Source: an uncultured bacterium (GTDB taxonomy: Bacteria > Chloroflexota > Anaerolineae > J036 > Brachytrichaceae). From it: a DNA stretch of 64,000 nucleotides. Position 1 is the stretch's first letter. Every line of letters begins with the position of its first letter. The stretch lies in the NCBI GenBank assembly GCA_903921365.1, contig CAIXPS010000101.1, positions 1-64,000 of the forward strand, read 5' to 3'. This document shows positions 7,213 through 28,833 of the stretch, in pieces. The translations under genes and the position numbers were made by a program. Under the pieces are notes generated by a model. The model was not told where the DNA came from. It saw only the letters and a program-made list of their open reading frames with translations, and did not search any database.

Positions 7213-7680
7213 TTATGGCGCGACAGTGAATTCGCCGCGCATTTTCAGGGTGTAGTGAGCCGCCTTGTTACAGAAGTAGATGTAGTGACCGGCATCAAGT
7301 TTTGCCGTCATCTCACCACCTTTACCCGGCTCAACGTCTTCAACAGACCCCACCTTGGTGTAGTCCTTGGAATTCTCATCAACTTCAGTGCCATCGCTGG
7401 ACATAGGCAATTTGTCGAGCGCAAGATCGGTCTTGACCAGTAGTATCTCGTGCTGGAGATCTGTGGCGTCGTTCTTCACAATGAACTTCACTTCTCCTGG
7501 CTTGATCTTGTCCCCTGTGAACTTAAATCCATAGGTTGTCAAACTGACGTTGACAACCTGTGGCGGCGCCGCGGTCGGGGTCGCCGCCGGCGCCGTGCTG
7601 CAGCCCACCATAGACGCTGCGATAAATGAAGTCGCAATGATTGCTTTGAGTCCCTTTGGGAAGGTCTTAACACTTTTCAT
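7213..7680 (-). CDS. Exported blue-copper (cupredoxin-like) lipoprotein
   Basis: 155 residues from the ATG at 7680, which has AGGAGA 9 bases upstream; the frame is open further but without a better start. A hydrophobic leader ends in SMVGC (Cys27), a slightly atypical lipobox, so it is probably a lipoprotein. A Pro/Ala linker precedes the cupredoxin fold. His77 (LQHEI), Cys137, His142 and Met147 (YFCNKAAHYTLKM) are spaced as type-1 copper ligands, so it should bind copper and carry electrons. It is the last gene of the exported array and a natural electron partner for the multicopper-oxidase-like proteins upstream, though that link is inferred. Codons 7-13 overlap a dispersed repeat copy. Confidence 0.85.
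   Translation of the reverse strand: MKSVKTFPKGLKAIIATSFIAASMVGCSTAPAATPTAAPPQVVNVSLTTYGFKFTGDKIKPGEVKFIVKNDATDLQHEILLVKTDLALDKLPMSSDGTEVDENSKDYTKVGSVEDVEPGKGGEMTAKLDAGHYIYFCNKAAHYTLKMRGEFTVAP
7641..7662 (+). repeat. Dispersed palindromic repeat, copy in the cupredoxin gene
   Basis: TTGCTTTGAGTCCCTTTGGG then AA; encodes FPKGLKA on the minus strand at the start of the signal peptide. Confidence 0.75.
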
Positions 7681-7781
7681 CACACATTTTCTCCTGTAAA
7701 CAACCAATCAAATTACCTGGTGTGCGCGCGTATGAATCACGCCACACTTTCGGCCCGTAAAAACCACCCGCTGAAATTCCG

Positions 7782-10343
7782 CTAGCGATAGGCACTGGGT
7801 ATCCATATAACGTGTAATAAACCCGGATTGGATTCAACCACCTGCACGGGAATGCTCCACTGGCTCGAACTGCCCACACGGTTGGAGTAAGCCGGGTTGT
7901 GCAGGGTGCTCGCGACGGTGACTGTAAGCGCTGAGCCGCCCAATAGCCCCGTATAGGTGAAGACGCCGCTCGCATCCGCCGTCACAGGAGACTGCCGCGT
8001 GATCGTTGTAAGGTCATCGTAGTAAACATCCACCTGCGACAGTGGATTGGCCGTCCCGGTCACGATGACCGTCACAAAGTGATCCAGGGTTGCCGCCCCA
8101 AGAATGACCGGCGTCTGCGCCCAGTTATTGGTATACGTGATGACATCGCCACCTTCAAGGATGCCGGCGCCCTGCATGCCGGTGAGCGCGCGTGGGAACG
8201 AATCGCGCACGATGACGCGTTGTGCCGCTGCGCTATCCGACGCCAGCAGAGTCACTTCGCACATGCCCTGGTCAGGGCAGTCGCCGTGGTTGGCATCTCC
8301 GCTGCCGCCGATCACGTCGCCGATGCGCGTGTCGCTCCCGGTCGGGTTAATGATGATCGGCCCATTCACGTAGCTCTTGTGCAGAATGGCGCCCGCGCCT
8401 GAGACGGTCAGGGTAGCACTGACCGGCGGCGAGAGCGTAAAGACAGTGGCGCTGAGCGGGTCTGGCCGGCTGTTGAGATAACCCAACCCCACGCCGCAGA
8501 TATCCACGTTGGCCCCGGCTGCCTCCACATCGACTAACGCTGCTGTGCCGCCAATATCAATGTTGCGCAGCGTGGCGCCCGTGCCAAGGCTGAAGATGAC
8601 AAACTGTCCGGTTGCGCGGATACTCACGAGCGGATTGGCAGGGCTTCCACAAGGCTGGTAGCGCTTCTGACCCACCGCCACGCCATCAGGCACAGACAGT
8701 GTGCTCGACACGTCAATCGTATCGACCGCCGGGTCAAGTTGCGCAAAGCTGACAACGTCGCCGTTGACCGCATTTGACAGCGCAAAGCGCAATGTGCCGG
8801 TCTTCGAGATCAGATCGCCGTCCGTGGCAAGATCGCCAGTGCCAGTCACATACCAGGTGGCATTGGGCGCGCCAGTCGTCGTTGGCGGCAGAGTATTGAG
8901 AAGGCTGTTATAGGCGGACAGGACATTCAATCGCCCTGCGCCAAATGCATTGTCCGGGCCAGGCGTCCCCATATCCACGCTGGTTGAGATCAGCACGCTC
9001 CGCTGCAGATCAACGGTAAGCGTTGGGAATGCGCTCAACAGCAATGCGAGTGAGCCAGCCACATGCGGCGCAGCCAGGGATGTGCCAGTCGAGCTGACAT
9101 ACATACCATATAGATCAGTGGATCGGATAGCGACGCCAGGAGCGACGATATCGGGATACGTGGTTGAAGGCTCACCGCAAGCAGATGGGCCGCGGCTGCT
9201 ATATGCGTAGAGCTGATTCGTGTTATTGATTGCGCCGACAGCGAGCGCCTCAGGGTAGTTCGCCGGGCTGACACTGGTGTTATTCCCCGGGCCGTTGTTC
9301 CCCGCTGCAAAGATCGGCAGGATGCCCACGGCTGTCAATGCCTGCAAGTCTTGTTGAAATTCAAGATTGCACCCGACCGAGCCATACGCCCAGGAGTTAT
9401 TCACGACCTGCGGCGCATCCGGCGTATTCGGATCGCCGTCCGGATCCAGCAACCATTGGTAGCTCTGATGAATTGCTGAAGTCGTTGCGCCACCCGCATC
9501 GTTAAATATCTTGGCGGCGATCCACTTGGCCTGGGGCGCCACACCGACTGCTATGCCTCCGGCGTCCCCGCCAACCATCACGCCCATCGTCCATGTGCCA
9601 TGACCGCTGGCATCAAACGGGAGTGTGGGATGCTGACCGTAGGGGTCGAACCAACTGTTGGCGCCGCCGCGCCATCTGCCCGCCAGATCGGGGTGGGTCA
9701 CGTCTACGCCGGTGTCCAGGTTCGCGACGACAACCCCTTGCCCAAAATATCCCATACTCCACAACGCTGGCGCGTTGATGAGCGTCAGGTTGGGCGAAGG
9801 CGGATTGGATGCCGCTGCAGAAACCGACTCTGCGACCGGCACGATCGAAATCTCATCGGGCGTGATACTGAACACATCAGGATGTGCAGCCAGTTCCCGG
9901 ATCACATCGGGCGTGGCGGTTACCGCGAGGCCATTGAACACCCAGAATGGCAGGATGCGGCTGACGCGCCCCTGGGATCGTCGTGTCTCGAGCAAGGCGC
10001 GCAATCCTCTTTGAGTGATGCTGGCATGGTCACGCAAGGCGGTGATCACACCCCGCTGGCGTTCTGCGCGGCTGCGCCCTTTGACGGCCCCGACATCCGC
10101 TTGTTGCGCAAGCGTGACGATTACGGTTGTCATCGCCGCCGGTTGCATGCCAGCCAGGATCGTCTGGACTTGCGGATCAAGTTTCGGGCTGTATAGGGTC
10201 ACCGGCGACTGCTTTGAGTCCCTTTGGGAATGAGTTGCCTGCACGGTCGGCGGAGGGTGCTCCACTTTCCTGGCGCCGAAGAGCGCCACAACCGTGATAA
10301 CCGCCAGACCCAGGTTCGTTATTTTCTTCACGGGACTCGACAA
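7782..10343 (-). CDS. Secreted subtilisin-like serine protease (peptidase S8)
   Basis: 853 residues. An N-terminal hydrophobic segment (about 8-23) is the export signal, followed by an I9-like propeptide region (about 70-165). The catalytic domain carries the triad: Asp210 in VANLDTGVD, His248 in DASGHGTWTMG and Ser422 in STGTSLAAPHVAG, with the oxyanion Asn in FAAGNNGPG. This is bacillopeptidase F-like order. From about residue 480 onward is a beta-rich region with Ig-like segments. The protein ends in HVIWIPSAYR, similar to the tails of other exported proteins here. It overlaps no neighbour (10 bp after the membrane protein gene) and may process the large surface proteins; that role is inferred. 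Residues 39-46 are encoded by a dispersed repeat. Confidence 0.92.
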   Translation of the reverse strand: MSSPVKKITNLGLAVITVVALFGARKVEHPPPTVQATHSQRDSKQSPVTLYSPKLDPQVQTILAGMQPAAMTTVIVTLAQQADVGAVKGRSRAERQRGVITALRDHASITQRGLRALLETRRSQGRVSRILPFWVFNGLAVTATPDVIRELAAHPDVFSITPDEISIVPVAESVSAAASNPPSPNLTLINAPALWSMGYFGQGVVVANLDTGVDVTHPDLAGRWRGGANSWFDPYGQHPTLPFDASGHGTWTMGVMVGGDAGGIAVGVAPQAKWIAAKIFNDAGGATTSAIHQSYQWLLDPDGDPNTPDAPQVVNNSWAYGSVGCNLEFQQDLQALTAVGILPIFAAGNNGPGNNTSVSPANYPEALAVGAINNTNQLYAYSSRGPSACGEPSTTYPDIVAPGVAIRSTDLYGMYVSSTGTSLAAPHVAGSLALLLSAFPTLTVDLQRSVLISTSVDMGTPGPDNAFGAGRLNVLSAYNSLLNTLPPTTTGAPNATWYVTGTGDLATDGDLISKTGTLRFALSNAVNGDVVSFAQLDPAVDTIDVSSTLSVPDGVAVGQKRYQPCGSPANPLVSIRATGQFVIFSLGTGATLRNIDIGGTAALVDVEAAGANVDICGVGLGYLNSRPDPLSATVFTLSPPVSATLTVSGAGAILHKSYVNGPIIINPTGSDTRIGDVIGGSGDANHGDCPDQGMCEVTLLASDSAAAQRVIVRDSFPRALTGMQGAGILEGGDVITYTNNWAQTPVILGAATLDHFVTVIVTGTANPLSQVDVYYDDLTTITRQSPVTADASGVFTYTGLLGGSALTVTVASTLHNPAYSNRVGSSSQWSIPVQVVESNPGLLHVIWIPSAYR
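10207..10230 (+). repeat. Dispersed palindromic repeat, copy in the protease gene
   Basis: GACTGCTTTGAGTCCCTTTG followed by GGAA; encodes SQRDSKQS on the minus strand just after the protease signal segment. Confidence 0.8.
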
Positions 10344-10353
10344 AACGCGCCAG

Positions 10354-11253
10354 TTACTGCGCCAGGATATTCTCTGTGCGCAAATTGCCGAAGATCACAC
10401 TGACGGGCGTGCCGGGTCGGATAATGCCTTGTGAATTGGGGAAGAACATGACGTATTGCACGCCCTGTTTCAGCTTTCCGTGAGAATGCATGCGCGGCGC
10501 AAGAATCAGGGATTGGTTATTTACAAGCAATGCCGCATGGTTATCAAGAAGCAAGTGCGCTTTTTCAGGGTCGTCAATTTTGACGCGCACGTCGATGATG
10601 CTGTCCATCGCCGTAAGCCCGACCAGAGTTACCCGCACGCCATACTGCGCTTCCAACTCATTGAAAGTAGTCGCCCGTGTCTTGATCAGGTCAGCAACGG
10701 GCGGGACCATTCCCGGCACAGAAGCGATTGTAGAAGCCTCAGTAACGGCAGCATCCCATATTGACGCTGAGTAACCCACCGCAACGGCGACAAGTATAGC
10801 CAAAACAGGTGGGATCAGGCGCCGCCAGCTAGACGCGACAGGTGGGTTGGCATCAACACCGAGTCTCCAGGGTCGTAGTAGCGCCAGCACGATAAACAGG
10901 ACTTCTGCAGTGACGGCAATCACACCATAAGGCGTGAACCACTCCTGAACGTTCATCGCGGGCATGCCCAGGGTCCTGCTCCAGAGGTAACCTGCCATCG
11001 AGGCAACGGCAATGAGCAGCCCCAGCAACCACCCCCAGACCACCCGGTGATAAATCACATAAGCGGCAACCAGTGCGCCCACGAAGTTGGCCACAAACAA
11101 ATACCCTATATAGGGTGCCTGTGTGTACTCGATCTGCGCAGCTAGCACATGCTGCAACCCGATGACAAGAATCAACACAACGGCAAACCAATGAAGGCCG
11201 CGTGCCTTCATTTGACTGCTTTGTTTATCGATACCAGGTTCTACTATTGCCAT
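10354..11253 (-). CDS. Polytopic membrane protein with an unrecognised C-terminal domain shared with its neighbour
   Basis: 299 residues. About five hydrophobic helices (roughly residues 20-40, 48-68, 72-92, 108-127, 152-172) are followed by an exposed C-terminal domain. That domain (YGVRVTLVGLTAMDSIIDVR near its start, RPGTPVSVIFGNLRTENILA at its end) lines up with the C-terminal domain of the next protein. A later start at Met15 is possible. No family was recognised. It lies 17 bp after its paralogue and 10 bp before the protease, clearly one transcription unit. It could be a membrane anchor or assembly factor for the exported copper proteins, but the sequence does not show a function. Confidence 0.75.
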   Translation of the reverse strand: MAIVEPGIDKQSSQMKARGLHWFAVVLILVIGLQHVLAAQIEYTQAPYIGYLFVANFVGALVAAYVIYHRVVWGWLLGLLIAVASMAGYLWSRTLGMPAMNVQEWFTPYGVIAVTAEVLFIVLALLRPWRLGVDANPPVASSWRRLIPPVLAILVAVAVGYSASIWDAAVTEASTIASVPGMVPPVADLIKTRATTFNELEAQYGVRVTLVGLTAMDSIIDVRVKIDDPEKAHLLLDNHAALLVNNQSLILAPRMHSHGKLKQGVQYVMFFPNSQGIIRPGTPVSVIFGNLRTENILAQ

Positions 11254-11270: not shown

Positions 11271-11789
11271 CTATTGCGCGGCAACGGCTTCAACCAGCGT
11301 GTCGCCAAACAGAAGAGAGACCGGGGTTCCCAGCTTAATGGCGCTCCCGCCATTCGGAAACAGAATATAAAAATTGCTGTCGTTAACATAGCGGAATTCG
11401 CCTACCCGCGCATCTTCAGGGACACTGAGTGTCACGCCACGGTCGGCAACATACAGCGCCGGGTAGTTCTTGGCATCCTGTAGCAGCGCTTTGGCTTTCA
11501 CCGCGTCGACCATTTTCAAGCGCACGTCGATCAATCCGCTTGCGGCAGTCAGCGAAATCAGAGTGATGCGCAGCCCATATTTCTGCTCCAGCATGCTTTG
11601 TGAGATTGGCGGCGCCGATGGGGCGACATTGGCGCTCCGGGATGGATTCAGGCCGCGAATCACAAAAAAGGCCGCCACAGCTACGCCTATCACCACGACA
11701 ATGATCATGACAACGATCACCGGGGCGAAAGGCTTGAATGTGCGCGATTGAGGACTGGTTCCTGAAGGATTCAAAGGCAATAAATTCAT
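11271..11789 (-). CDS. Single-pass membrane protein, paralogue of the following gene
   Basis: 172 residues from the ATG at 11789. An upstream ATG at 11825 would put the start inside the terminator-like hairpin at 11814-11848, so the shorter form is preferred. One membrane helix (about 24-45) follows a short N-terminus, then a Pro/Ala linker and a domain with YGLRITLISLTAASGLIDVR and KLGTPVSLLFGDTLVEAVAA. Both blocks match the neighbouring 299-residue protein. This looks like a minimal version of that protein: one helix plus the shared domain. Family and function unknown. Part of the N-terminus (PLNPSGTS) is encoded by a diverged copy of the dispersed repeat. Confidence 0.7.
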   Translation of the reverse strand: MNLLPLNPSGTSPQSRTFKPFAPVIVVMIIVVVIGVAVAAFFVIRGLNPSRSANVAPSAPPISQSMLEQKYGLRITLISLTAASGLIDVRLKMVDAVKAKALLQDAKNYPALYVADRGVTLSVPEDARVGEFRYVNDSNFYILFPNGGSAIKLGTPVSLLFGDTLVEAVAAQ

Positions 11790-11813
11790 TTGCAGGTGTT
11801 CTATCTCTAAACG

Positions 11814-11848
11814 GCAGAAAGCCACTCAGGTCTTGAGTGGCTTTCTGC
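11814..11848 (-). terminator. Terminator-like perfect hairpin
   Basis: Perfect 15-bp inverted repeat GCAGAAAGCCACTCA/TGAGTGGCTTTCTGC with a 5-base loop, 15 bp after the stop of the 1030-residue protein gene. The following T-run is short, so termination may be partial, separating the copper-oxidase half of the array from the membrane protein/protease half. Confidence 0.7.
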
Positions 11849-11862
11849 GATGACTGTAGGAC

Positions 11863-14800
11863 TTAGTTTACCTCGACCATCGGGAGGAACACCGGACTCA
11901 TCGGCCCTCCCTCGTTTCCATTCACAACCAGCAGACCGGCCAGCGTCCGACGGGTCGATACAAAGGCATCAAACATCATCGAACCACTTGCGCCGGCTTG
12001 CAGACCAGCCGACGGGCCAAGCCGCACTGATTCAAGCGTATTAGCGCTCGTGTCCAGTGGGCCTAGTGTTCCGCCGGCAGGGATGGCCCCGTCAATCGAG
12101 AAACTGACGGATGCGGACGGGGCGGAGAACCAGGCAATCTCGAAGTAGTGTGTTGCGTTGGAGATGTTGAACCAGTTGGTGCTTGTCGCGCCACCCTGGC
12201 GCACGACAGAGTAGCGCGCCTGATATTGATTACCCGCTGTCTGGCGTCGCAACTGCACCTGGAAGATGGCGGTATTGAACGCGTTCAACCCGGAGAAGAT
12301 CGTCACACCGTTGGCGCTGTTGTTGTTGTTCAGCACAACGCTGTTCGGGCGGAAGTAGAAGCGCGCATGGTAGCTGGCTTCTGCATTCGGGGTGTTATCG
12401 ATCACCCAGACCGGTGTGCGCGTGGCGCCTGTGGCAACCGTTGCGCGCAGGCCAAATGCCGGAATGCCATCCAGCGAGGCCGTGGAGGTCACCAGCAGGT
12501 TTGTCCCGCTCGATCCGCTCCAGGCCGACCGATTGCCCGATGAGAAGCTATCCGCGAAGATCACGTTTGGCCACACGATGACAACAGATGTGGAGATCGT
12601 GGTGCTCCAGTTGCCCGCAGCATCCTTTGCCCGCAAGGTCACGGTGTGCGTGCCCGCCGCCCAGTCCAGGGCGACGAAGTTGATCACCGCGCTCAACCCT
12701 TCGGTGGAGCTGTTGAAAGCGCCATCTGTGGCCGACATCGGCGTCCCATTGTTGAGGCCAGGATCCGCGCCCTCAAACCACTCGCCGCCTCCGATGTTGC
12801 TGCCGCCTGTGCCTGCATCGGTCGCCGTAGCCGTCAGTGTAAAGACAGAACTGTTACCCGTGTTGTTGTTGGTCGGGTTGGGGCTGACAGCCGCGCCGCT
12901 GATGACCGGGCTGGTCTTGTCGATCACAAAGGAGATGCCAGTGGCTGTAGCCCAGTTGCCCGCGGAATCCCTGGCGTGCACATACAGAGTGTGTGTCCCC
13001 ACGCTCAGAGAATTGATCGTCAACAGCGGGATGTCGGCATACGCATTTTCCATCGCAGTGTCGAATACGCCGTCGCTGGGGACGAAGATAAATCCTTGAC
13101 CGTTGATGCCAACGGCGTCGATAAAGCCTTCACCTGCGCTGATCAAGGAGAGTGCGTCGCTGAATGTGGCCGACAGGCGAACCACCATATCGCTGGAATC
13201 GACGGGGTAAAGCCCGTTATTCGGATTCGGCGACGCGATGACGTTCAATGCTGCCGGGCCAGTAAGGTCCACGATCAGCGTCGCCGTCGCGGGCATGCCC
13301 CAGTTGTTCAGTGAATCCTGGCTGGTAACGACAACCGTATGGGCGCCCTCAGTGAGTGAAATCACCGTTGCTGCCGGAATAATAGCCGCCAGACTGGCGA
13401 CCGGCGCTGCCGTGTTAACAGTCATCGTCGCCTGCGCGCCACCGTCAATAGCATATACCGCGGCGGAGATTATGGAACCACCGTGGATCAGGTCGCTAGC
13501 CGTCCCGCTCAACGACACGTCCGCCGTGCCATTTGTCGGGTTAGGCATAAGCACCAGCGCTGACGTATCAGGGCCAGCCTTGTCCAGATTCAGTGTAATG
13601 AAGTTAAACGGCCCCCAGTTGGCAGCGGCATCTGATCCGCGCACAAAGAGGGTGTGGTTGCCGGCAGAAAGCGTCGCCAGGCTTGCCACGCTGATGGTGA
13701 CCTGAACGGTTTCAGTCGGTGAATCAAACGCCCCATCCAGTGCAGACAGCGGCGTTGGGACGCCAGATACATTGTCAATGTAGTACTCGGCAGATTGGAC
13801 ATTTGATCCGCCGGTGGCAAAGTCGCCAACCGTCGCAGTTAAGCCAATGTCTGAATTCCCGTCAGTGGGATTCGCCGTCAATGCCACATTGGATGTGCCT
13901 GGGCCAGTCACGTCGCCAGCAACGCCAGCAGTTCCCACGGCCAGGAATGTGAGCATCCCGCCAAAACCGCTGTCGGTATTGTTGTGCAGCATGAGGTTGG
14001 CGTCGTACAAAGCATAGCGCGCGCCAGCCACTGCGGTCGCAGGAATCACCACGATGCGGTCGGATGTTTCGCCTGGCGCCATAGTCTCTGCGACGACAGT
14101 GTGGGTTATTGGAAATGCGTTGCCATCCACAGCAACCAGCGTCTGAAGAACGCCCAGAGCGGTGATCGAGTACGGCTGGAGGCCGGAATTGACGTACCGC
14201 AGGAGCACCCTGTGACCTGCCACTGTCGGAATGGAAGCCGTAGCAGGGTAGACATTCCCGTTGATGGTATAGAACTTGGGCGCGTAGTCGCGCATGTCAA
14301 ACGCTGCCGGCGTCAGGCTGGTGTTCAGCGCCGGGTCGATGTCGCCCAGCACCATCACCGCTTCATCATCATACGCGGTTGAAACCGTGCCATATGCAGT
14401 GCCCGCCGCTGCCGGACGCACGACGAGCGCGCCAGACAACCCCATGGCGATCTGATACTCCGTGTTGGGCAACAGACCGGACTCATACAGGAACGTGCCT
14501 GCGGACGAGGCCGTAAATGTGTACGTCTTAGTGCCGCCAGGGCCCACACCTTTCTGATCGGTCGGCATCGCCTGACCCGTGAACAGTAACGAGGTCGAGA
14601 ACGGGAGGCTATTGTGTAATCTCACCACCTCGACATCGCCCTGGGTGGCAAACAGCGTGACGCCGCCTGGCTTCGTTAAGGCGGGGCCGCCTGTGCAGGT
14701 TCCAGTGGTATACCCGTAAACCGTTACCAGCCCGACATATCCGGGCAAGGTGATTTGCGCACTGGTTGCGCATATATCCCTCGTAACCACGGCGGTGGTA

Positions 14801-14955
14801 ACACGGGGGGCGTTTGTGGTCACAACATCCGCCGCCAGAGATGTAGTCGGGGTCGGAATAGACAGCGCAGCCACGGCCACGATGCTAAGCGTCCGTAAAG
14901 CCGTCTGAAATATCTTTTTCATTGCTTTTGAATCCTTTAGGATGGTTTTCCTCAT
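11863..14955 (-). CDS. Secreted cupredoxin-fold protein with Ig-like and LamG-like domains; copper ligands lost
   Basis: 1030 residues. A signal peptide is present whether translation starts at 14955 or at the internal ATG 14922 (MKKIFQTALR). Residues about 40-345 align with the two multicopper-oxidase-like proteins encoded just upstream: ALTKPGGVTLFATQGDVEVV, GTFLYESGLLP...MGLSGALVVRP, FYTINGNVYPAT and LRYVNSGLQPYSITALG. At the positions of copper ligands it has FTGQ instead of HWHG and YESG instead of YHCH, so it should not bind a catalytic copper cluster. Several Ig-like repeats follow (about 355-790; units ending in the SAGNHTLFVRGSDAAANWG type), then a LamG-like jelly roll (800-1000). 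It ends in PVFLPMVEVN. A structural or adhesive partner of the oxidases is the simplest reading. Confidence 0.8.
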   Translation of the reverse strand: MRKTILKDSKAMKKIFQTALRTLSIVAVAALSIPTPTTSLAADVVTTNAPRVTTAVVTRDICATSAQITLPGYVGLVTVYGYTTGTCTGGPALTKPGGVTLFATQGDVEVVRLHNSLPFSTSLLFTGQAMPTDQKGVGPGGTKTYTFTASSAGTFLYESGLLPNTEYQIAMGLSGALVVRPAAAGTAYGTVSTAYDDEAVMVLGDIDPALNTSLTPAAFDMRDYAPKFYTINGNVYPATASIPTVAGHRVLLRYVNSGLQPYSITALGVLQTLVAVDGNAFPITHTVVAETMAPGETSDRIVVIPATAVAGARYALYDANLMLHNNTDSGFGGMLTFLAVGTAGVAGDVTGPGTSNVALTANPTDGNSDIGLTATVGDFATGGSNVQSAEYYIDNVSGVPTPLSALDGAFDSPTETVQVTISVASLATLSAGNHTLFVRGSDAAANWGPFNFITLNLDKAGPDTSALVLMPNPTNGTADVSLSGTASDLIHGGSIISAAVYAIDGGAQATMTVNTAAPVASLAAIIPAATVISLTEGAHTVVVTSQDSLNNWGMPATATLIVDLTGPAALNVIASPNPNNGLYPVDSSDMVVRLSATFSDALSLISAGEGFIDAVGINGQGFIFVPSDGVFDTAMENAYADIPLLTINSLSVGTHTLYVHARDSAGNWATATGISFVIDKTSPVISGAAVSPNPTNNNTGNSSVFTLTATATDAGTGGSNIGGGEWFEGADPGLNNGTPMSATDGAFNSSTEGLSAVINFVALDWAAGTHTVTLRAKDAAGNWSTTISTSVVIVWPNVIFADSFSSGNRSAWSGSSGTNLLVTSTASLDGIPAFGLRATVATGATRTPVWVIDNTPNAEASYHARFYFRPNSVVLNNNNSANGVTIFSGLNAFNTAIFQVQLRRQTAGNQYQARYSVVRQGGATSTNWFNISNATHYFEIAWFSAPSASVSFSIDGAIPAGGTLGPLDTSANTLESVRLGPSAGLQAGASGSMMFDAFVSTRRTLAGLLVVNGNEGGPMSPVFLPMVEVN

Positions 14956-14968
14956 CTCTCCGGCGGCA

Positions 14969-16261
14969 TTACGGACAATTGTTAGGTAGCGGCGGATCGA
15001 TTCGCAAGTAGGTGATCTGGCCTGCCATCGTCATACCCCACGCATCGAGTTGGAACAGCGCGTGGTTGTGTGAAATGATGTAGTACTCACCGCACTGGTT
15101 CAGGCTTGACGTGCCGGGCGGCAAAGTTCCCTTCACACCCAGATACGGGCTGCCGCTGTAGAACATGCCGGTGGTCATGTTGCTGATGTCAGGAACGGTG
15201 ACGGGGATGGGATTAGCCATGCTGTAGTTCTCCGCGTCATACCACTGCATGAGAACATCCCAGGTCTGCCCCGGCCCGATATTAATCGCGTACTTCTCGA
15301 AGGACATATCCTGACCGGCCGGCCCTGCAACAGGTTGACCGTCGCGTCCAATCACCACCCCGTTATGACCGTGCGGATGGTGTGAGTACTCTTCCGAGCC
15401 CGCGTTGATGTAACGCGCCAGGCCGGGATAAGGATGCGCTGTGGCATCATATGGATGGATGCGGGCCAGAGAACCATACGGCTGGCTGGGCAGGCGCGTG
15501 GCGAAATTGTCAGCGATCGTATCGGGGAAGGTGCGCCCGTTGAGCAACCAGTAATGCACATGATAGGTTGTCAGGTCAAAGGGCAGGTTCTGCTCAGCCG
15601 CGCTGTGCTGGTAGGGGTCGATTTCGGTCAGGAAGACCAGGAACTCTTCCTCCGGCGTGAACCTGCTGTCCGCGCGGTTGTAGGCGAAGTTTGCGCCACT
15701 GGTTGGCCGCACGATCAGGGCGCCGGACAGACCCATGCGCGCCTGCTTCTCAGGATTCGTGCCGGACTGGTAAAGATAGGTGCCGGGGTTGCTGGCGACG
15801 AAGCTATAAGTCATGCTGCCGCCGTTGGCAGGCGCCACGTTCGTCAGCGAGGTCGCTTTCCCCGTGCCGTCAAATTGCGGTTGGGCCGGGGCGCCATTGG
15901 CCAGGACATTGGTCTGACCAGGGAAGATGATGGAAGAATCCTCCGACAGTGTATTGTGGAAGATCACCGTGACCGTGTCGCCCTGGTTCACGCACAGCAC
16001 CGGACCGGGGTACTGGAACGGCTGGCCGCCGACCGAGTAGCTCCACATGAAGACGGTATTGCCATCCGAGATGGTGATGATACCGGTCTTGGCATCCACC
16101 GTAAAGGTAGGGCCATAGGTGCACGCGAGGCCGATCGCCGGCGCTGTTGCGGCAGCAACGCGCTGCGCGCCAGTCTGTGCGCCAAGGGACAGTCCCCCTA
16201 CGCTGAGCGCCAGCAGCAGCACGATTCCCAGCCGCAACGATTTGAATCCTGAAGGTTGCAT
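14969..16261 (-). CDS. Secreted multicopper-oxidase-like protein with domain-3 copper motif only
   Basis: 430 residues with a signal peptide (about 1-37); AAGGAG lies 7 bases before the ATG. It aligns over its whole length with the 452-residue protein upstream: PGPVLCVNQGDTVTVIFHNT, NPGTYLYQSGTNP...MGLSGALIVRP, YWLLNGRTFPDTIADN, ARYINAGSEEYSHHPHGHN. The first-domain ligand motifs are replaced (FPGQ for HWHG, YQSG for YHCH), but residues 294-299 (HHPHGH) resemble the HPxHxHG motif of the last cupredoxin domain of multicopper oxidases; the 452-residue protein lacks it there. CGEYYIISHNHALFQLDAWG near the end adds further His residues. It may need its paralogue to form a complete copper cluster; this is inference. 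Confidence 0.82.
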   Translation of the reverse strand: MQPSGFKSLRLGIVLLLALSVGGLSLGAQTGAQRVAAATAPAIGLACTYGPTFTVDAKTGIITISDGNTVFMWSYSVGGQPFQYPGPVLCVNQGDTVTVIFHNTLSEDSSIIFPGQTNVLANGAPAQPQFDGTGKATSLTNVAPANGGSMTYSFVASNPGTYLYQSGTNPEKQARMGLSGALIVRPTSGANFAYNRADSRFTPEEEFLVFLTEIDPYQHSAAEQNLPFDLTTYHVHYWLLNGRTFPDTIADNFATRLPSQPYGSLARIHPYDATAHPYPGLARYINAGSEEYSHHPHGHNGVVIGRDGQPVAGPAGQDMSFEKYAINIGPGQTWDVLMQWYDAENYSMANPIPVTVPDISNMTTGMFYSGSPYLGVKGTLPPGTSSLNQCGEYYIISHNHALFQLDAWGMTMAGQITYLRIDPPLPNNCP

Positions 16262-16294
16262 TAATAACTCCTTTTCACGCCTGAACAGATCAGC

Positions 16295-17653
16295 CTACAT
16301 ACCCCAGTCATTGGGATACTGTTGTGCCGCCACGCCGCTTGGGTAAACACGCACCTCAGTTGCCTGACCGCCAAAGCCCCCGGCGCTCAGGTTAGACACC
16401 TGAGTCAGCCGGCGGTTATAAACCATATAGGTGTCGTAACCATGGCCGCTGCTGCCGCTGCCACCGGTATAAGCAGGGGCGGTGAAGATAGCGTCAAAAC
16501 TCTCGCCCGCGCTAGCCAGAACCGTATTCGTGACATAGCTGGTATCTGTGCCGTCGCGACCGCGCATCAACGTCGCATCGCGACCGACGATGCGCATCTT
16601 GATCCCCGCCAGCGTCATCGCTGCTTCGCGGAAACCCAGGTTGATGAAACGCAGCAACACGCGCTCGCCAGGCTTGCAGGTGATCAATGAGGACAACGGC
16701 TGGTACTGGAGTTGGGGATATCCTACCGGGGCGACCAATTCGCCATTCGCATCGCGCTGCACGGAGTGCGCGTTGATGGAGGTCGCGGCGTTGATCGGTG
16801 AATTTGGCGCGATCGTATCAGGATATACGCGCCCATTGAGCAAGCTGAAGTCGGCGTGATAGTCGCTCCAGTCAGGCAACTGGATATGCGAGTCGCACCA
16901 GTGCGCCTCTGCCCAGACCTCGCTCATAAACATGACAAACTCGCGATCGTGACCCGTAGAACCATCGCCGTCGTTATAGACATACTTGCCGCTGGGGTAC
17001 AGCGCCGTGTTGCCATTCTGCAACGGACGGATGAAAACCGGGCCGGTCATGCCCATGTGCACATGCTCAACATCTTCAACATGACAGTGGTACATGTACG
17101 TGCCAGGGTCGCGCGGGCGATAGACATAGGTAAAGTCACGCCCGATGGGGACTGAGATCGAACCCGTCGGCTCGCCGTCAAAGAAAGGGATGACGTTGCG
17201 AAAACCGTGCCAGTGCAAGGTATGCGAGTCCACCAGGTCGGGGCGTTGCCCCAGACCCAGGTTGGTCAATTGGACTCTAAAGTCCTTTGGATGCGCGGGA
17301 TCATACTGATTTGCCCAGAACAACGGCGCGTTGTGCTGCGCATGATTCTTCTGATTGTTTTTCTGCACAGTCGTCAGGCCGGTCACGTTGCGAAAGCCGA
17401 AGATGTACGTGTTGAACGGCGCCGGAGCATAGTCATCCGGGAAATAGAATCCGACCGGCGGGTCTGGCGGCAGGTATATCCACCCATCCGTGCCTGCCCA
17501 GTACAGGTCCGGCGCGGGGGTCTGCGCCTCTACCACCTCATCGGGCGCGAGCGCCTTGCGCACGAAGGGGGGCAAGACACCCACTCCGGCCGCGATCACA
17601 GCTGCGCCGCCTGCCAGTTTGAGAAAATCTCGTCGGGAAATGTGCTTTTTCAT
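16295..17653 (-). CDS. Tat-exported multicopper oxidase with domain-1 copper motifs
   Basis: 452 residues. The N-terminus is a twin-arginine signal (SRRDFLKLAGG, residues 6-16), as expected for a cofactor loaded before export; AGGAGAAG precedes the ATG. Copper motifs are HWHG (147-150) and YHCHVEDVEHVHMGM (178-192), the latter able to supply both trinuclear and type-1 ligands. The corresponding late-domain HPxHxHG motif is missing: RFINLGFREAAMTLAGIKMR stands where the 430-residue paralogue has HHPHGH. Usual three-domain enzymes carry both in one chain. It lies 28 bp after the giant surface protein gene and 33 bp before the 430-residue paralogue. Substrate unknown; metal oxidation or matrix cross-linking are possibilities. 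Confidence 0.88.
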   Translation of the reverse strand: MKKHISRRDFLKLAGGAAVIAAGVGVLPPFVRKALAPDEVVEAQTPAPDLYWAGTDGWIYLPPDPPVGFYFPDDYAPAPFNTYIFGFRNVTGLTTVQKNNQKNHAQHNAPLFWANQYDPAHPKDFRVQLTNLGLGQRPDLVDSHTLHWHGFRNVIPFFDGEPTGSISVPIGRDFTYVYRPRDPGTYMYHCHVEDVEHVHMGMTGPVFIRPLQNGNTALYPSGKYVYNDGDGSTGHDREFVMFMSEVWAEAHWCDSHIQLPDWSDYHADFSLLNGRVYPDTIAPNSPINAATSINAHSVQRDANGELVAPVGYPQLQYQPLSSLITCKPGERVLLRFINLGFREAAMTLAGIKMRIVGRDATLMRGRDGTDTSYVTNTVLASAGESFDAIFTAPAYTGGSGSSGHGYDTYMVYNRRLTQVSNLSAGGFGGQATEVRVYPSGVAAQQYPNDWGM

Positions 17654-17681: not shown

Positions 17682-20600
17682 CTAAGGCAGCGTCGCTCCT
17701 CTAAAGTCATCGATACGCGCGCCGGCTGGGAGCTGGATGCCGATCCTTCCAGTAGTGGTGAAGCTCGATGTCGCGGTCAGGCCGAGGTAAGTCGCGTTCT
17801 GCCACACATCCACCGACCCATCCGCGTTTGCAACCGCTGTCAGACGGTCGCCCGTCGCATAGGTTGCAGTGAATGTGCCGATCGGTGTATACGTTGCAGC
17901 CAGGGTGTTTCCATCCGTCGTCGTCTCGACGATGACTTGTCCTGCGCTGTAACGCACTCGAATGAAACTCGCCGGACTAGTCGTCGTCCCTACGCCGTTG
18001 GTTACTTTCAGCAGCAGGCTCGAATCACTCAACGGCGCCGCCGGTGATCCTGCACTCTGTGTAAAGGTAAACGCAGTTCCCTGATGCAGGCCAAAAGTCG
18101 CGCCAGGCGCCACTGCGCTATTCCAAATCGCCTGACCTGCCAGGACGGCAGAGGCCTGGTTGGTATTTACCTGGATGGCGCCGAGGCCAATTAGGAGCGC
18201 CTGACTCCAACTGGCGCCAAGGCTATTCTGGTTAACACGGTTGAAAGTATCCAGAACTGTCAGAGCGGGCAGTGCTTTGGCAATCAAGTCGGTATCGGTC
18301 GCGGTGTTGTTGCCGGGGTACGGGTCAATGACGCTGGGCGTGACTTGCGGAGTCACGTTGGCGGTATCAACAAGCGTCCCTGTCGCGAGAGCAGACAGCG
18401 TCGTCACTGCCGTGTAGGTCGCAGTAGCGCCAGCAGGAAGGGCAACCGTGCCTGTTCTGTTATTGCCAGTGCCGCCTGTCGCACAACTTGAGCCCGGAGC
18501 GACCGAGCATATCCAACGGCTGACGGTGAGTGACGACGGGAAGGAGTCGTTCATGCTGGCGCCCACGACCGCATCTGGGCCAATGTTGGTCACAAGGACG
18601 GTGTAGGTAACCACACTGCCAGGGAGAACGATTGCCTTATTGTCAGTGACGCTGATGGCGAGGTCGGCTGTCGGAATCGAGTCGATGTCAGTCGCCGTAT
18701 TGTTAACCGTATTCCGGTCTGTGAAACCGACTGGCGCAGCGACGACGGCGATGTTTTCAACGGCATCGAACGCGCTTGGCGCCACTGTGGCGCGAGCGAT
18801 GAATGTCGCTCGTCCGCCCGCCAACAGGTTGACCGTCCGGCTGATGTTGACGCTGCCGCTAGCCACGATACAACTGGACCCTGCGGTTGCAGTGCACGTC
18901 CAGGTGACGCCGCTCAGTGTGGCCGGGAAGTCGTCGGTGACGCCGACGCCATTGATGTTGTAGATGCTGCTATTGGTGACGATGATCGTGTACGTAATCT
19001 GGGTTCCCGGCGTCACAACAGTCCGCCCATCGGTCTTCGAGATCGCAAGATCGGCCAACGCTGGAACCTCATCTGCGCCGATATCGAATGCGCCGAACGC
19101 CGGGCGGGAATCCCTGTCGATGTCGAACGCCGGGGCTGCCAGGTTAGCCAGGGGCTGCTGATAGGCAGGCACTGCCACAGAAGCAACACCTGTGTTGTAC
19201 GCTGGCGATGCTGACCCCACCAGATGGTAGTCGGCCAATAGGTCGGGCGGCAGGTCAACGGTGACCATGATGGCGCCGACGTAGTTGATGTTGTTTCGCC
19301 ATGGGGCAAACGCGACCGAGATATCGTAGGTCGAACTCACCAGTGGATCCGCGGTGATATTCGTCGCAACACCCACGCCATCACCCACCTGGATGATTGA
19401 GTAAGTCGGAGCCAGCACACCGGCGCCATCGGCTACGCCCAGATCCCAGTGGTTAATCGGGGTCGTATCGCTGATCGCGCCAAGACCCGTCACAACCCCC
19501 AGGCCGCGCGTGCCGGCACGGTTATCCCAGAAAATATCATTGAACAACAATGGCTTGCTGAAGAGCGGCGAGCCTGCCGGCAGCGTAGCCTGCAACATCG
19601 TGCTGTTGCCCGATGTTGAAAGACCCGCCGGCGCCGGTGAGCCGTTGCTGGTCACGGCCGTTGCCGTGGTCAGGTTCTTCATGATCGTGTTGTTGTAGAT
19701 GCGCACATTCGGCGAATCATTCAAGGCGATGCCGCCGCCCTCATGCGTGGAGATGTTGTTGACAATGATGTTGTTGTAGACGTTGTACTGGAAGTTGCCG
19801 GCCATCAGGAACCTCAGGCCGCCGCCATCGTCATTGCCCAGATTGCTCTGGATAAGGTTGTTATAGATGTCCACCGGGCCAGCGCCTGGCGACAGGGTTG
19901 GCGTAATGATCACGGGAATGCAGTTCGGGTCGTCCGGATTAGTCGTCTCGCAGACTGGCGGCGGGTTGATCACCGTAACGATGCTGGCGGGGAGTTGACC
20001 GGACACCATGATGCCGCCGCCTTCGTCGTACGACTGGTTGAAGTAGACGCGGTTGTCATGGATCTTGCCATTCGGGCTCAAACCATAAGCGGTGAGACCG
20101 CCGCCGTATTCGGCAGAGAAGTTGCCGCAAATGTCGTTGTGCGCAACTTCGTACCCATCTGTGCCGGCGTAGATACCCACTGCGCCAGCGAGGTTGGTGC
20201 CAGAGTTGGCGAAAATCCGGTTGTTCACGATGCGCAGGTTTTCGTTGTGCTGATTCGTATCAGGCTCGACCAGGTCGGGTGTGCCGATGCGGATGGAGCC
20301 ATACGAACTGCTGTTGCCCTGGATTGTGTTGTTCGTGATCTGCAGGTTGTGAATGTAGGCGTTGGCAAAGATCGCGCCGCCCTGGTTGAGGGTATTGGCC
20401 TGACCCTGCTGGTCGCCGTTGCGGATATCAAAGCCGTCGATGGCCGCGTTAAACGCCGCGGTGTACTGTGTCTCGTTTTGGGCAAGTAAGTAGATCACCT
20501 GGCCATCAGACACAGTCTGGTTGCCAACCCAGATCATGGGGCCAATCCTGGCATACCAGGCAGTCGCCAGATCCGAATCGCCACCAAAAGCGCTCCCGTC

Positions 20601-23600
20601 GATAATCGAGCCGGGCACAGGGGGCGTCGTATCAGAATACACACCGCCGGGGCCAACGCCTTGCAACTTGATAGGGGCATTGATGATCAGGTTCTCGTAG
20701 TACGCGCCGCGACCGTTGTAGCGTGGATTCGTCAGGTCCGGCGCACCAGGGTAAACCACGACCAGAGCATCACCAGGGCTTGCAACCGCCGCATCAATTG
20801 CGTTCTGAATCACGGTATATGTCTGGCTTGGGCCAACCTCGTAGACAGTAGGCTGGTAACCAATCACCGACACCGTTCCAACGCGGAAGTTGTCAACACG
20901 GGCGCCGGTTGGAAGCTGTATGCCAAGCCGGCCGCCGCCTGTGAAGGTAGTCGCAGCCGAGTGGCCCACAATCGAGGTGACGTTGGCTGCGCTTGACTTG
21001 CGCACATCGACTGAGCCGTCAGCGTTTGCAATAGCTGTCAACGTATCGCGCGTTGCAAAGGTCACTGGGAAAGCATTGACCTGCGCGTAGTTGATCCCGG
21101 CGTTGTCGGTCGTTTCAACAATGACCCGATTGGGGCCGGTCGCATAGCGCACACGGATATAGTTGGTTGGCGCAGCGGCTGTGCCGCCGCTTGCCTTTAA
21201 GATGAGGCTGGAACCATTTACGGGCGCAGCAGGGGCGCCCGCAGTCTGTGTAAAGGTAAATGAGGCGCCCTGCACCGACCCGTAAACATTGGTCGGGCCG
21301 TTCCATATCGCCAGACCACTTGCGACTGCCCTAGCCTGGTTGCCGTTCAATTGGATGAAGGCCGACCCGAGCAGAATCGTCTGGCTCCAGTTCGTGCCGA
21401 GCGTAGTCGCATTCACACGGTTAAAGTCATCCAGCACCGGGCTGAGCGAGAACGGTGTATCACCGATGACGTGGTAGGTCAACCCATTGATCGTGACAAG
21501 ACCAGCGTTGGTCCGGACGGTCAACTGTTGTGCGCCGCGCGCGGTGGTCGATGGGACCATGACCTGGATCACGCGATCGCTCCACGACTGGACTTGCAAG
21601 GGCAAATTGCCCAGCAACACCTGTCCGGCGGCGGCGCCGAAGCCAATTCCGGTGATCGTGAACGTGGCATTCACGGCGGTATTGCGGAAGTCCGCGTACG
21701 GCTTGGATACCGCGAAGAGCTGCGGCACAAAGTCTGACAGTTTGCAGCTTGGGGAGTAATTGAACTGGCCGCCAGGCAACTGGGCGAGCGTGCGCACCTG
21801 CGTTGGCGCGTTGTCCGCAGGGATCAGCAAGCCAGGCAGTGTCTCGAACTCGGTCGCGATGGTGCGGAATTGCGGATTGTAGTTCGCATTCAGCCGGCCT
21901 GGGATGCCGGGATCGTTACCGACGAAACGATACAGGTTGGCGCATACACCAGATGGCGTCGGGCAGCTGATGCGGTTCGACGACGGCAGAAGCACATCGT
22001 ACAAGCCGCTGTAATCGGTCTCAACAGTGGTGATCAGCCGGTTCTCAAAATCATAGATACCGACGGGAGCGAAAGGCACGCCAGCTTTTTCGCCAAAGTC
22101 CAGCGACTTTGGATCTGTCGAATAGTTGAGGTCGTCAACGAGCAACCCCCACAGACGCGCTGGCTGCTGGATATCGGTGAACAAGTTAAAGTTGGGTGCA
22201 ACAGATCGGCCATTGCTGACAGTGACCAGCTTGGTGGTGCACAGCGGTCGCGGCTGACCCTCATAATAGGTTCCGACGGCGGCGACATAATCCGGATTAT
22301 GTACGGGTGTTGAGGATGTGACAACGATGCCGTTCGTCAGGGTTATTGGGCCATAGTTATCTGTGCCGAAGCCTTCAAGGTCCACTGTGTGCAGCGGCCC
22401 GACGCATTCGGGCGGTGGAATCTGCGGGATAAACTGGTCGCCAGTAAAGATGTTGATATCCTCTTCTTTGGTGACCTTATACTGAGGTTTGCCGACGGCA
22501 TCCTTAGGAATATTCACTTCGACGAGGTAATCAGCAGGCGTCAATTCCTGGAAAGTACCGCCAACACAAACTGGTTTCGAGGGATCCGTAGCATCGAGTG
22601 TCCCTGTATAACAGGCGCTCCCAAAGCTATAGTTGCCATCGACAGTCGAATATCCCGACTGGAATTGCACACCCATCAATGGCGCTTCGAGGCAGTCGGT
22701 GGGCGACTTTGTGACCTGCTGCCCAGCTGGATAAGCCAACGGCGCATTATTGACGTCACGAGGAATGCAATTGCCGTCCCCATTGACATTGTGATTGAAG
22801 CCCGGCCGGCGCCAGGTTTCGGACACATACGTATTGAGTAGCTTTCCCTTGGCAAGCGAACCATCTTTGGCGAGTTCGTAGCGACCAGTCGCGTCGCATG
22901 GAGTTCCTGCGTTCGTGCCACAGGCAACGGGTGGATATAGGCTCACAGTCACGTTTGGAATACCTGGCTGCCAGACTTCAACTACTGCGTAACGCGGATC
23001 ATATTCGTTGCGGGTGGTGTCAAAACTGACCGTACCGACAATTCCACCGTTGCGCGGATCAACCCCACCGCTTTTTCCATCCGCGTCATAAGGGTGCACG
23101 CCCCAGTCCAGGCGGCCGCCCAGACCAATGACGGGCAGGAAACTCACGTCTACACCTCTGCCCAGAATCGTTGTAGGCGAGGGTTGGTTGTCCGCCTGCC
23201 ATGTCACGCCAGTGGTGTAATAAGCATCGGTATAGGCCTCTTCCACCAGCCATTGCGTGAGCGGATAGGCATTCTCCATATAGTAGTAGCCACTCTGGTC
23301 GGTGAAGACAGTCGTGGCGCCGCGATCGCTCAACGAGTTATCGCGCTTCTTAACCGCTATAGGATAATGCGCAACGCCTTTCTCGCCTGGGTCCATGATT
23401 CCGTTGCGGTTGTCATCCTGGAATACATAACCCTCAAGGGTAGTCCACCAACCTGTAGTGGAGAGCAGACCCAGGTTTACCGCCTCGCCGTTGTGAACTG
23501 AAAGATTCTTGGTCTGAATAATATAGTTCTGTGGTTCGTCCCAGTAGGTCAATGTGTAATCGCCATCCGGAACATTCGGGATGGTGAACGAGCCATCGGC

Positions 23601-25142: not shown

Positions 25143-25760
25143 TCACGGTTCCTGTTGGAGCACGTAACGAATGATTTCAGAATTCGAGCGCCACACCATC
25201 TTCTGCATGATGCGCCTCCGATAGGTGCTCACGGTCTTTACGCTTAAAGAGAGCAGCTTGGCAATCTCGGTCACCGTATTGCCATCTCCGATCATCCGCA
25301 TCACCTCATGCTCGCGTTCCGACAGCACGGTGTGGGGATGTTGATCGTAAGAATCGGCGCTGATGGATTCTGCCAGCGTAGGGCTGGAGTACTTGCGATG
25401 ACCCGCCACATGACGGATCGCCTCAACAATCTGCTCCGGCGCGCTGTCCTTGGGCAGGTAACCCGCCGCGCCCGCTTTCAGCACGCGTAAGGCATACTGC
25501 CTCTCGGGGTGCATACTGAACACGAGCACAGCCATATTCGGGTAAAGCTCTTTGACAGGCTTCAGAATATCAAAGCCACTGCGCCCGGGCATGTTGATAT
25601 CCAGAATCAACACATCGCAGTTTGCCGTCAGCAGCTTGCTCAACGTCTGTTGAGCATCCCCTGCCTCAGCCGCAACCATAATATCGCCCGCTTCAGAGAA
25701 TATCTGCTTTAGCCCCTGCCGCACAACCGCGTGATCATCCGCCACAACAACCTTTATCAT
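25143..25760 (-). CDS. NarL/FixJ-family response regulator
   Basis: 205 residues. Residues 1-120 are a receiver domain: acidic VVADDHAVVRQG, phospho-acceptor Asp in DVLILDINMPG (about residue 54), and the conserved Lys in YLPKDS. Residues 140-203 are a LuxR-type helix-turn-helix: LSEREHEVMRMIGDGNTVTEIAKLLSLSVKTVSTYRRRIMQK. It is divergent from the sensor kinase gene at 26121 and lies immediately upstream of the giant surface protein gene in the same direction, so it is the best local candidate to control the exported array. Partner kinase not proven; both nearby kinases are of the matching HisKA_3 class. Confidence 0.93.
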   Translation of the reverse strand: MIKVVVADDHAVVRQGLKQIFSEAGDIMVAAEAGDAQQTLSKLLTANCDVLILDINMPGRSGFDILKPVKELYPNMAVLVFSMHPERQYALRVLKAGAAGYLPKDSAPEQIVEAIRHVAGHRKYSSPTLAESISADSYDQHPHTVLSEREHEVMRMIGDGNTVTEIAKLLSLSVKTVSTYRRRIMQKMVWRSNSEIIRYVLQQEP

Positions 25761-28175: not shown

Positions 28176-28833
28176 ACCGATTCGTGTTTTGATTGCCGAC
28201 GACCATTCGATTGTTCGACTGGGGTTGCGCACCCTGCTCGCAACTGTCCCGGATATGCTAGTGGTTGGCGAAGCAGAGGATGGGGAGAGGGCAGTGGAAT
28301 TATTTTTGACGCTGCAGCCGGACGTCATGCTGCTGGATCTGATGATGCCGAACAAAGACGGCATCACAGTCATCCGCGAGATCATGGCGCAGAATAGTCA
28401 GGCGCGCGCACTGGTGCTCACCAGCTTCGCAGGTGACAACCAGGTATTCCCGGCGATCAAGGCGGGCGCGCTGGGTTATCTGCTAAAGGATGCATCACCC
28501 CAGGATTTACTAACTGCAATCCGGGCAGTCATGCGCGGCGAGCCCTTCATGCACCCGACGATTGCGCGCAAGCTGATGCTCGAACTCAACCGCCCATCTG
28601 ACCTGCCGCCAACCCCTGAACCGCTCACAGAGCGCGAGCTTGAAGTATTGAGCCTGCTTGCGCAAGGTCTATCCAACCAGGAAGTCGCCATTACGCTGGC
28701 AATCAGCGAGAATACAGCGCGCAATCATGTCGCCAGCATATTGAGCAAACTGCACCTTGCCAACCGCACACAGGCTGCCCTGTATGCGCTACGCAAAGGG
28801 CTGACCAAATCGAGCGCCGCTCAGACCGAGTAG
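28168..28833 (+). CDS. NarL/FixJ-family response regulator paired with the upstream kinase
   Basis: 221 residues from the ATG at 28168, with AGG 6 bases upstream; an earlier TTG at 28156 is less likely. The receiver domain has IRVLIADDHSIVRLG, the phospho-acceptor in DVMLLDLMMPNKDG and Lys in YLLKDAS. The LuxR-type helix-turn-helix follows (LTERELEVLSLLAQGLSNQEVAITLAISENTARNHV). The 8-bp overlap with the kinase indicates translational coupling, so the two form a dedicated two-component system. Targets are not shown; the GH39-like gene 21 bp downstream and the surface protein after it are nearest. Confidence 0.95.
   Translation: MGEPIRVLIADDHSIVRLGLRTLLATVPDMLVVGEAEDGERAVELFLTLQPDVMLLDLMMPNKDGITVIREIMAQNSQARALVLTSFAGDNQVFPAIKAGALGYLLKDASPQDLLTAIRAVMRGEPFMHPTIARKLMLELNRPSDLPPTPEPLTERELEVLSLLAQGLSNQEVAITLAISENTARNHVASILSKLHLANRTQAALYALRKGLTKSSAAQTE

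Follow-up and report, generated by a model that had tools for sequence, protein, structure and literature searches.

How can three adjacent, paralogous genes of the multicopper oxidase type give rise to a working enzyme when no one of their products carries a complete set of copper ligands? This question is raised by a locus in a 64,000-nucleotide stretch of DNA (the window) from an uncultured Chloroflexota bacterium (contig CAIXPS010000101.1). The first-pass annotation of the window, made from its letters alone, had placed three adjacent paralogues here, and the open reading frames (ORFs) bear this out: they lie on the minus strand in the order A, B, C. Based on the sequences, we propose that A, B and C are the subunits of one secreted multicopper oxidase that would work only as a hetero-oligomer, an A-C-B ring with a single copper site between the second domain of B (B.D2) and the first domain of A (A.D1), and we think this proposal quite likely to be right. 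Of its parts, the obligate hetero-oligomer is the most likely reading of the locus, and the six-domain A-C-B ring with one live site is probable. The three genes are as follows.

16295–17653, minus strand: gene A, 452 amino acids (aa); ORF with Pfam Cu-oxidase_3/2 and TAT_signal matches and a TIGR01409 (twin-arginine translocation, TAT) match
14969–16261, minus strand: gene B, 430 aa, with a Sec-like signal and two cupredoxin domains; ORF with a Pfam Cu-oxidase_3 match
11863–14955, minus strand: gene C, 1030 aa, with a Sec-like signal; ORF with Pfam Cu-oxidase_3 and Big_13 matches

Only 33 base pairs (bp) separate A from B, and 13 bp separate B from C. Pfam matches Cu-oxidase_3, the multicopper oxidase first domain, in all three products, and the Pfam matches together with the strand pattern of AlphaFold2 (AF2) models give each chain two cupredoxin domains, to which C adds further domains. 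In C, a ligand-free two-domain paralogue occupies the first ~350 aa and immunoglobulin (Ig)-like repeats follow it. The annotation had read both Ig and LamG domains into C; the former stand, with significant bacterial Ig-like (Big_13) matches, and the latter drew no match in the Pfam scan.

The copper ligands were followed through a sample of loci obtained by scanning one genome per species with A and adding genomes of the same phylum, which yielded 86 distinct loci in at least nine phyla (Chloroflexota, Actinomycetota, Pseudomonadota, Thermodesulfobacteriota, Nitrospirota, Acidobacteriota, Myxococcota, Planctomycetota and Dormibacterota). Cultured carriers of the three genes include Methylobacter tundripaludum SV96, Humibacillus xanthopallidus DSM 21776 and Thiomicrorhabdus chilensis DSM 12352. 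Residues were assigned to the type 1 (T1) or the trinuclear copper site by alignment to the two-domain oxidases 3g5w and 2zwn and by general knowledge of the family. In the window the ligands are found at four places.

17207–17224, minus strand: A H144-x-x-H147-x-H149 (HTLHWH), the T1 His and two trinuclear His; 86/86 loci; aligned to HTIHWH of 3g5w/2zwn
17048–17089, minus strand: A H189-C190-H191...H197...M202 (HCHVEDVEHVHMGM), two trinuclear His and the T1 Cys, His and Met; H/C/H/H in 86/86 loci, M in 84/86
15371–15379, minus strand: B H295-x-H297 (HPH), two trinuclear His; 83/83 loci; aligned to AIHTHGH of 3g5w
15062–15070, minus strand: B H398-x-H400 (HNH), two trinuclear His; 80/80 loci that have the region

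Domain 1 of A, with its motifs HTLHWHG and YHCHVEDVEHVHMGM, thus holds a T1 set (H144, C190, H197 and M202) and four trinuclear His, and domain 2 of A is ligand-free, the late HxH pair being absent. Domain 1 of B is dead at the ligand positions; its domain 2 supplies four trinuclear His, in the motifs SHHPHGH (H295/H297) and, near the end of B, ISHNHALF (H398/H400), and has no T1 Cys. Neither domain of C has copper ligands, and no conserved ligand set was found for C in 76 loci. The motifs quoted in the first-pass annotation are all present and distributed as it described (HWHG and the YHCH region in A without the late pair, HHPHGH in B beside a dead first domain, a ligand-free C), and its HHPHGH pair in B is real; its account of B was incomplete, as the second pair, H398/H400, had been missed. 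With that pair included, A and B jointly hold, once each, eight trinuclear His and one H-C-H-M T1 site, so that the whole set of three proteins amounts to one full eight-His trinuclear set per six domains. The T1 ligands lie in the N-terminal domain of A and are missing from B and C, and no chain carries both trinuclear halves: these sit on separate chains wherever both genes are intact. In short, the divided site first noticed from the sequence is confirmed, and had been understated. By phmmer, domain 1 of A and the first half of domain 2 of B align to the matching domains of 3g5w and 2zwn. A copper nitrite reductase (NirK, with T1 and a mononuclear type 2 copper and incomplete HxH pairs) was considered and rejected, as A has HCH plus HxH and B has two HxH pairs; the match to the nitrite reductase model TIGR02376 is far below its cut-off.

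Motif loss seen in a single genome could resemble the decay of a multicopper oxidase family, with the losses being drift in non-functional copies. The wider sample makes this reading scarcely credible. H144, H147, H149, H189, C190, H191 and H197 of A are identical in every one of the 86 loci, and M202 is kept in 84 of them; in B, H295 and H297 are invariant (83/83), as are H398 and H400 wherever they can be read (80/80, the other three loci having gaps there). The equivalent positions in domain 2 of A, domain 1 of B and both domains of C are not conserved as ligands. Because the pattern is near-invariant across loci, a chance origin is excluded. The frames are open, and ligand pattern and synteny are shared over at least nine phyla, with one frame-broken B (locus L052) seen. 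On this evidence, the division of ligands is not local decay.

The first-pass annotation had also asked whether the three genes always occur together. No real exception was found. The order A-B-C is held across the 86 loci, A and B are on the same strand in 83/83 with a median gap of 17 bp, and the only loci without an intact B are L044 and L070, which stop at a contig end, and L052, where the reading frame of B is disrupted; no A without B was found away from contig ends among the loci examined. The loci that lack C all stop at a contig edge, and C is present after B at every locus whose contig extends far enough. At L032, the next ORF starts with DUF11 repeats and runs into a C domain at the contig end. 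When 400 genomes of the phylum were searched with full-length profiles, A (E < 1e-150) and B (E < 1e-158) each gave ten copies, adjacent to one another and confined to one shared set of nine genomes; the next-best matches score far lower, at about 1e-30 to 1e-50. Nor did true orthologs of A or B include a single gene with all of the motifs, the case that the annotation had named as contrary to its idea. One genome (G380; locus L124, contig G380:C98) has two complete tandem A-B-C sets.

This one-to-one co-occurrence bears on a second alternative, in which A and B would form separate homo-oligomers, A as a T1 electron-transfer protein and B as a copper-binding chaperone or scaffold. Such a division of labor would be consistent with the complete T1 set that A alone holds and with the confident single-chain folds, but it leaves unexplained why four trinuclear His persist in A and precisely the remaining four in B, near-invariant across phyla. 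H147, H149, H189 and H191 would serve no purpose in a T1 protein acting by itself. We consider separate roles for A and B very improbable.

What kind of oxidase, then, would place half of its trinuclear site on one chain and half on another? In the trimers of two-domain oxidases, the trinuclear site is built from two neighboring protomers, and in type C the T1 copper is in the N-terminal domain (PMC13151041). The best Protein Data Bank matches of both the A and the B profile are 3g5w and 2zwn, which are of this type. Like them, A, B and C have two cupredoxin domains per chain and the T1 site in domain 1 (that of A), and they would likewise make a trinuclear site from domain 1 of one chain and domain 2 of another. 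The known type C enzymes are, however, homotrimers in which every chain is fully liganded, whereas here the ligands are spread over two paralogous chains and a third has none, a division that argues for a hetero-oligomer and not a homotrimer.

In our proposal, the module descends from a type C two-domain enzyme that assembled as a homotrimer, its three identical sites each formed between the first domain of one copy and the second domain of the next. Triplication would have been followed by complementary degeneration, with A keeping domain 1, B keeping domain 2 and C keeping neither. A ring in the order A-C-B would set B.D2 against A.D1 and create exactly one complete T1/trinuclear site, the outcome being six cupredoxin domains with a single oxygen-reducing center, a ceruloplasmin layout on three chains. 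Electrons from the substrate would enter at the T1 copper of A and cross the H-C-H motif to the A/B trinuclear cluster, where O2 would be reduced to water.

The phylogeny is in keeping with a long shared history. A (support 100/100), B (94/83) and C (100/99) form separate clades, and an earlier, larger tree agrees for A and B; the root is at the midpoint, and the branching among A, B and C is not fixed by it. The same bipartition recurs within all three clades, setting Chloroflexota, Actinomycetota and some methanotrophs apart from Proteobacteria and allies; such mirroring would be expected of genes that have moved as a unit since before the two groups parted. A twin-arginine signal is present on A in the Chloroflexota/Actinomycetota lineage and is not obvious in the proteobacterial lineage, as judged from a sequence alignment; the export route of A therefore seems to have changed.

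The nearest complete single-chain relatives (L119, L120 and L122) come from another family of the phylum. They are 370–390 aa long and, like A, have the T1 site in domain 1; unlike A, B and C, they carry all T1 and trinuclear ligands in one chain. Two further single-chain oxidases with a T1 set and HxH pairs, in L012 (649–2355, minus strand, 568 aa) and L037 (1–2553, plus strand, over 850 aa), have A-like N-terminal features and are a possible closer outgroup to A-B-C.

Within the family of L119, L120 and L122, two species of one genus (genomes G451 and G457) have a tandem oxidase pair with complementary ligand loss.

L121 459–2741 and L128 355–2670, minus strand in both: the G451/G457 tandem pair, in the order B-like then A-like, with no C

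The A-like member keeps domain 1 (GHTIHLHG and YHCH...EHIQMGM) and has lost HxxHxH from domain 2, an HEH remaining in that dead domain; the B-like member has lost domain 1 and kept domain 2 (MMHTHGHHF and MFHDHIE). The tree nests the pair among the single-chain oxidases (98/98) and not with A, B or C, and because of this placement we regard the split as independent of that in A-B-C. In another genome (G322; locus L123, contig G322:C101), an 815-aa ORF joins an A-like half with intact domain 1 ligands to a B-like half with intact domain 2 ligands. We read this ORF as a natural fusion of a complementary-loss pair.

Structure models allow us to approximate how the chains might pack. At locus L078 the A, B and C genes share a reading frame, and the same is true of A and B in the window; their stops were read through to give single chains for AF2; the AF2 alignment A2 was built without single C rows. 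The L078 A-B-C chain was modeled with a mean predicted local distance difference test score (pLDDT) of 85 and a predicted template modelling score (pTM) of 0.88, its linkers disordered, and the window A-B chain with a pLDDT of 87.5 and a pTM of 0.87. High pTM despite disordered linkers implies a confident mutual placement of the chains. The top full-length Foldseek matches, at E-values of 1e-33 or lower, are ceruloplasmin, factors V and VIII, and MnxG. A match to a three-domain Thermus laccase (TMt 0.66–0.73, residue ranges not shown) gives a weak hint of laccase-like A.D1/B.D2 packing.

The contact between B.D2 and A.D1 that the copper site needs implies the ring order A-C-B, opposite to the gene order A-B-C, and with that ring order a sequential alignment to ceruloplasmin must fail. 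The template modelling (TM) score to ceruloplasmin in sequence order, 0.21, was weighed as a possible failure of the ring idea; it is what the A-C-B order would give, though the agreement is indirect.

Must C be part of this ring? It could instead be a surface or matrix protein of the same family, with the shared copper site built by an A/B oligomer (A2B, AB2 or (AB)n). C has no ligands, it carries long Ig, DUF11 or beta-helix extensions in many loci, the G451/G457 split pair and the G322 fusion have two partners only, and A-B alone from the window was modeled at a pTM of 0.87. Against a place outside the ring are the presence of C after B wherever the contig suffices, the retention of its two-domain core even where C is only about 330 aa long, and the A-B-C single chain modeled at a pTM of 0.88. 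We consider an A/B oligomer with C outside the ring unlikely, but a good deal less so than separate roles for A and B. C as a structural partner, the role suggested for it by the first-pass annotation, is consistent with its conservation combined with its loss of ligands.

The proposal of an obligate hetero-oligomer is supported by strict ligand complementarity, one-to-one co-occurrence in fixed order, confident AF2 packing and kinship to the type C oxidases, and further by the independent split pair in G451 and G457 and the fusion of complementary halves in G322. The suggestion in the earlier annotation that copper sites are completed between chains is thereby strengthened. Several points weigh on the other side. 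The AF2 models are of one read-through chain with disordered linkers and not of a true multimer, C was represented by 14 alignment rows only, and packing was judged by pLDDT and pTM only. The ceruloplasmin comparison fits the A-C-B order without proving a closed ring, and only ancestry and co-occurrence speak for placing the ligand-free C in that ring. We know of no purified protein, copper content or activity for any member. We infer the complex, its A1B1C1 ring stoichiometry, its loading with copper, its reduction of O2 and its anchoring to a giant neighboring protein described below.

The proposed enzyme can be compared with two other kinds of oxidase. For ceruloplasmin and related six-domain oxidases, the accepted origin is triplication of a two-domain enzyme within one chain and the subsequent loss of all but one of the three trinuclear sites (PMC3600357). 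A ring of A, B and C would resemble ceruloplasmin, hephaestin and other six-domain oxidases in having six cupredoxin domains and one of three possible trinuclear sites left. The ceruloplasmin-type enzymes are, however, one polypeptide with T1 sites in even-numbered domains, whereas here there are three polypeptides with the T1 site in the first domain of A; the six domains come from three genes of two domains each. In the bacterial manganese oxidase MnxEFG, MnxG is the sole multicopper oxidase subunit, and MnxE and MnxF are small and without known homologs (PMC5622069). This system (9bxa) is likewise bacterial, requires several operon genes and gives a full-length fold match; it differs in that in A-B-C the copper site itself is divided among paralogous oxidase chains. 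A-B-C thus fits the definition of neither a single-chain type C oxidase nor a one-polypeptide six-domain oxidase, yet probably works like both. We found no description of a hetero-oligomeric, split or heterodimeric oxidase of this kind in the open literature, most subscription papers being outside that coverage.

We consider it fairly probable that these loci represent a widespread bacterial class in which a homotrimeric oxidase has turned into an obligate heterotrimer with one split site, in parallel with the rise of six-domain enzymes on a single chain and with the opposite (type C) point of departure, with complementary loss occurring at least twice independently and the halves fused in one lineage. 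Two gene products would contribute four ligands apiece to the active site. The module resembles ceruloplasmin-type site loss spread over separate genes, which would open the sequence of steps, and the selection behind them, to study in living bacteria. It would also show cleanly, with an independent replicate, how complementary loss can bind subunits to one another in a complex. There is a practical consequence as well: annotation would call A, B and C multicopper oxidases individually; expression of a single one should not yield a working enzyme, and the full trio is probably required.

The three genes belong to a tight gene run on the minus strand that comprises a giant protein, A, B, C, two membrane proteins, a subtilase and a plastocyanin-like protein.

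17682–24914, minus strand: giant secreted protein, 2410 aa, directly upstream of A; SdrD_B, carboxypeptidase-regulatory-like, beta-helix and DUF11 domains (Pfam)
11271–11825, minus strand: membrane-anchored protein, 184 aa, after C; its cluster occurs in 46/59 loci with enough downstream DNA
10354–11253, minus strand: membrane protein, 299 aa, a paralogue of the 184-aa protein in the same cluster
7782–10343, minus strand: subtilase (Peptidase_S8), a recurrent downstream neighbor; Pfam E-value 1.4e-50
7213–7707, minus strand: plastocyanin-like cupredoxin, 164 aa, at the end of the run; Pfam PF00127

The giant is present in 58 of the 66 loci with enough upstream DNA, and five of the eight loci without it have a C of 2200–2630 aa. 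Such long C proteins occur in six gammaproteobacterial-type loci (L089, 12328–19914, plus strand; L091, L109, L112, L114 and L116); that of L089, the only long C that was domain-scanned, contains the SdrD_B and beta-helix domains of the giant. In L118 (1302–8543, plus strand) the giant is fused to A. Fusions of the giant with A and with C link it to the module, and its conservation, along with the L118 fusion, suggests that the enzyme may be held at the cell surface with it.

Neither the 184-aa nor the 299-aa protein has a Pfam or NCBIfam assignment; that they act in assembly would be a guess. A subtilase neighbor was found in at least 23/59 loci by a strict motif that undercounts, and the neighbor in L054 is also an S8 peptidase. 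The 164-aa cupredoxin is a singleton cluster that is not conserved in other loci; it is a possible electron partner. LuxR-type response regulators and a histidine kinase lie beside the operon (25143–25760, minus strand; 26121–28833, plus strand), with similar regulators in about 34 loci. SCO1-like, CopC-like and NosL-like neighbors, recognized by eye from the cluster sequences, are present in some loci and would fit a role in copper delivery.

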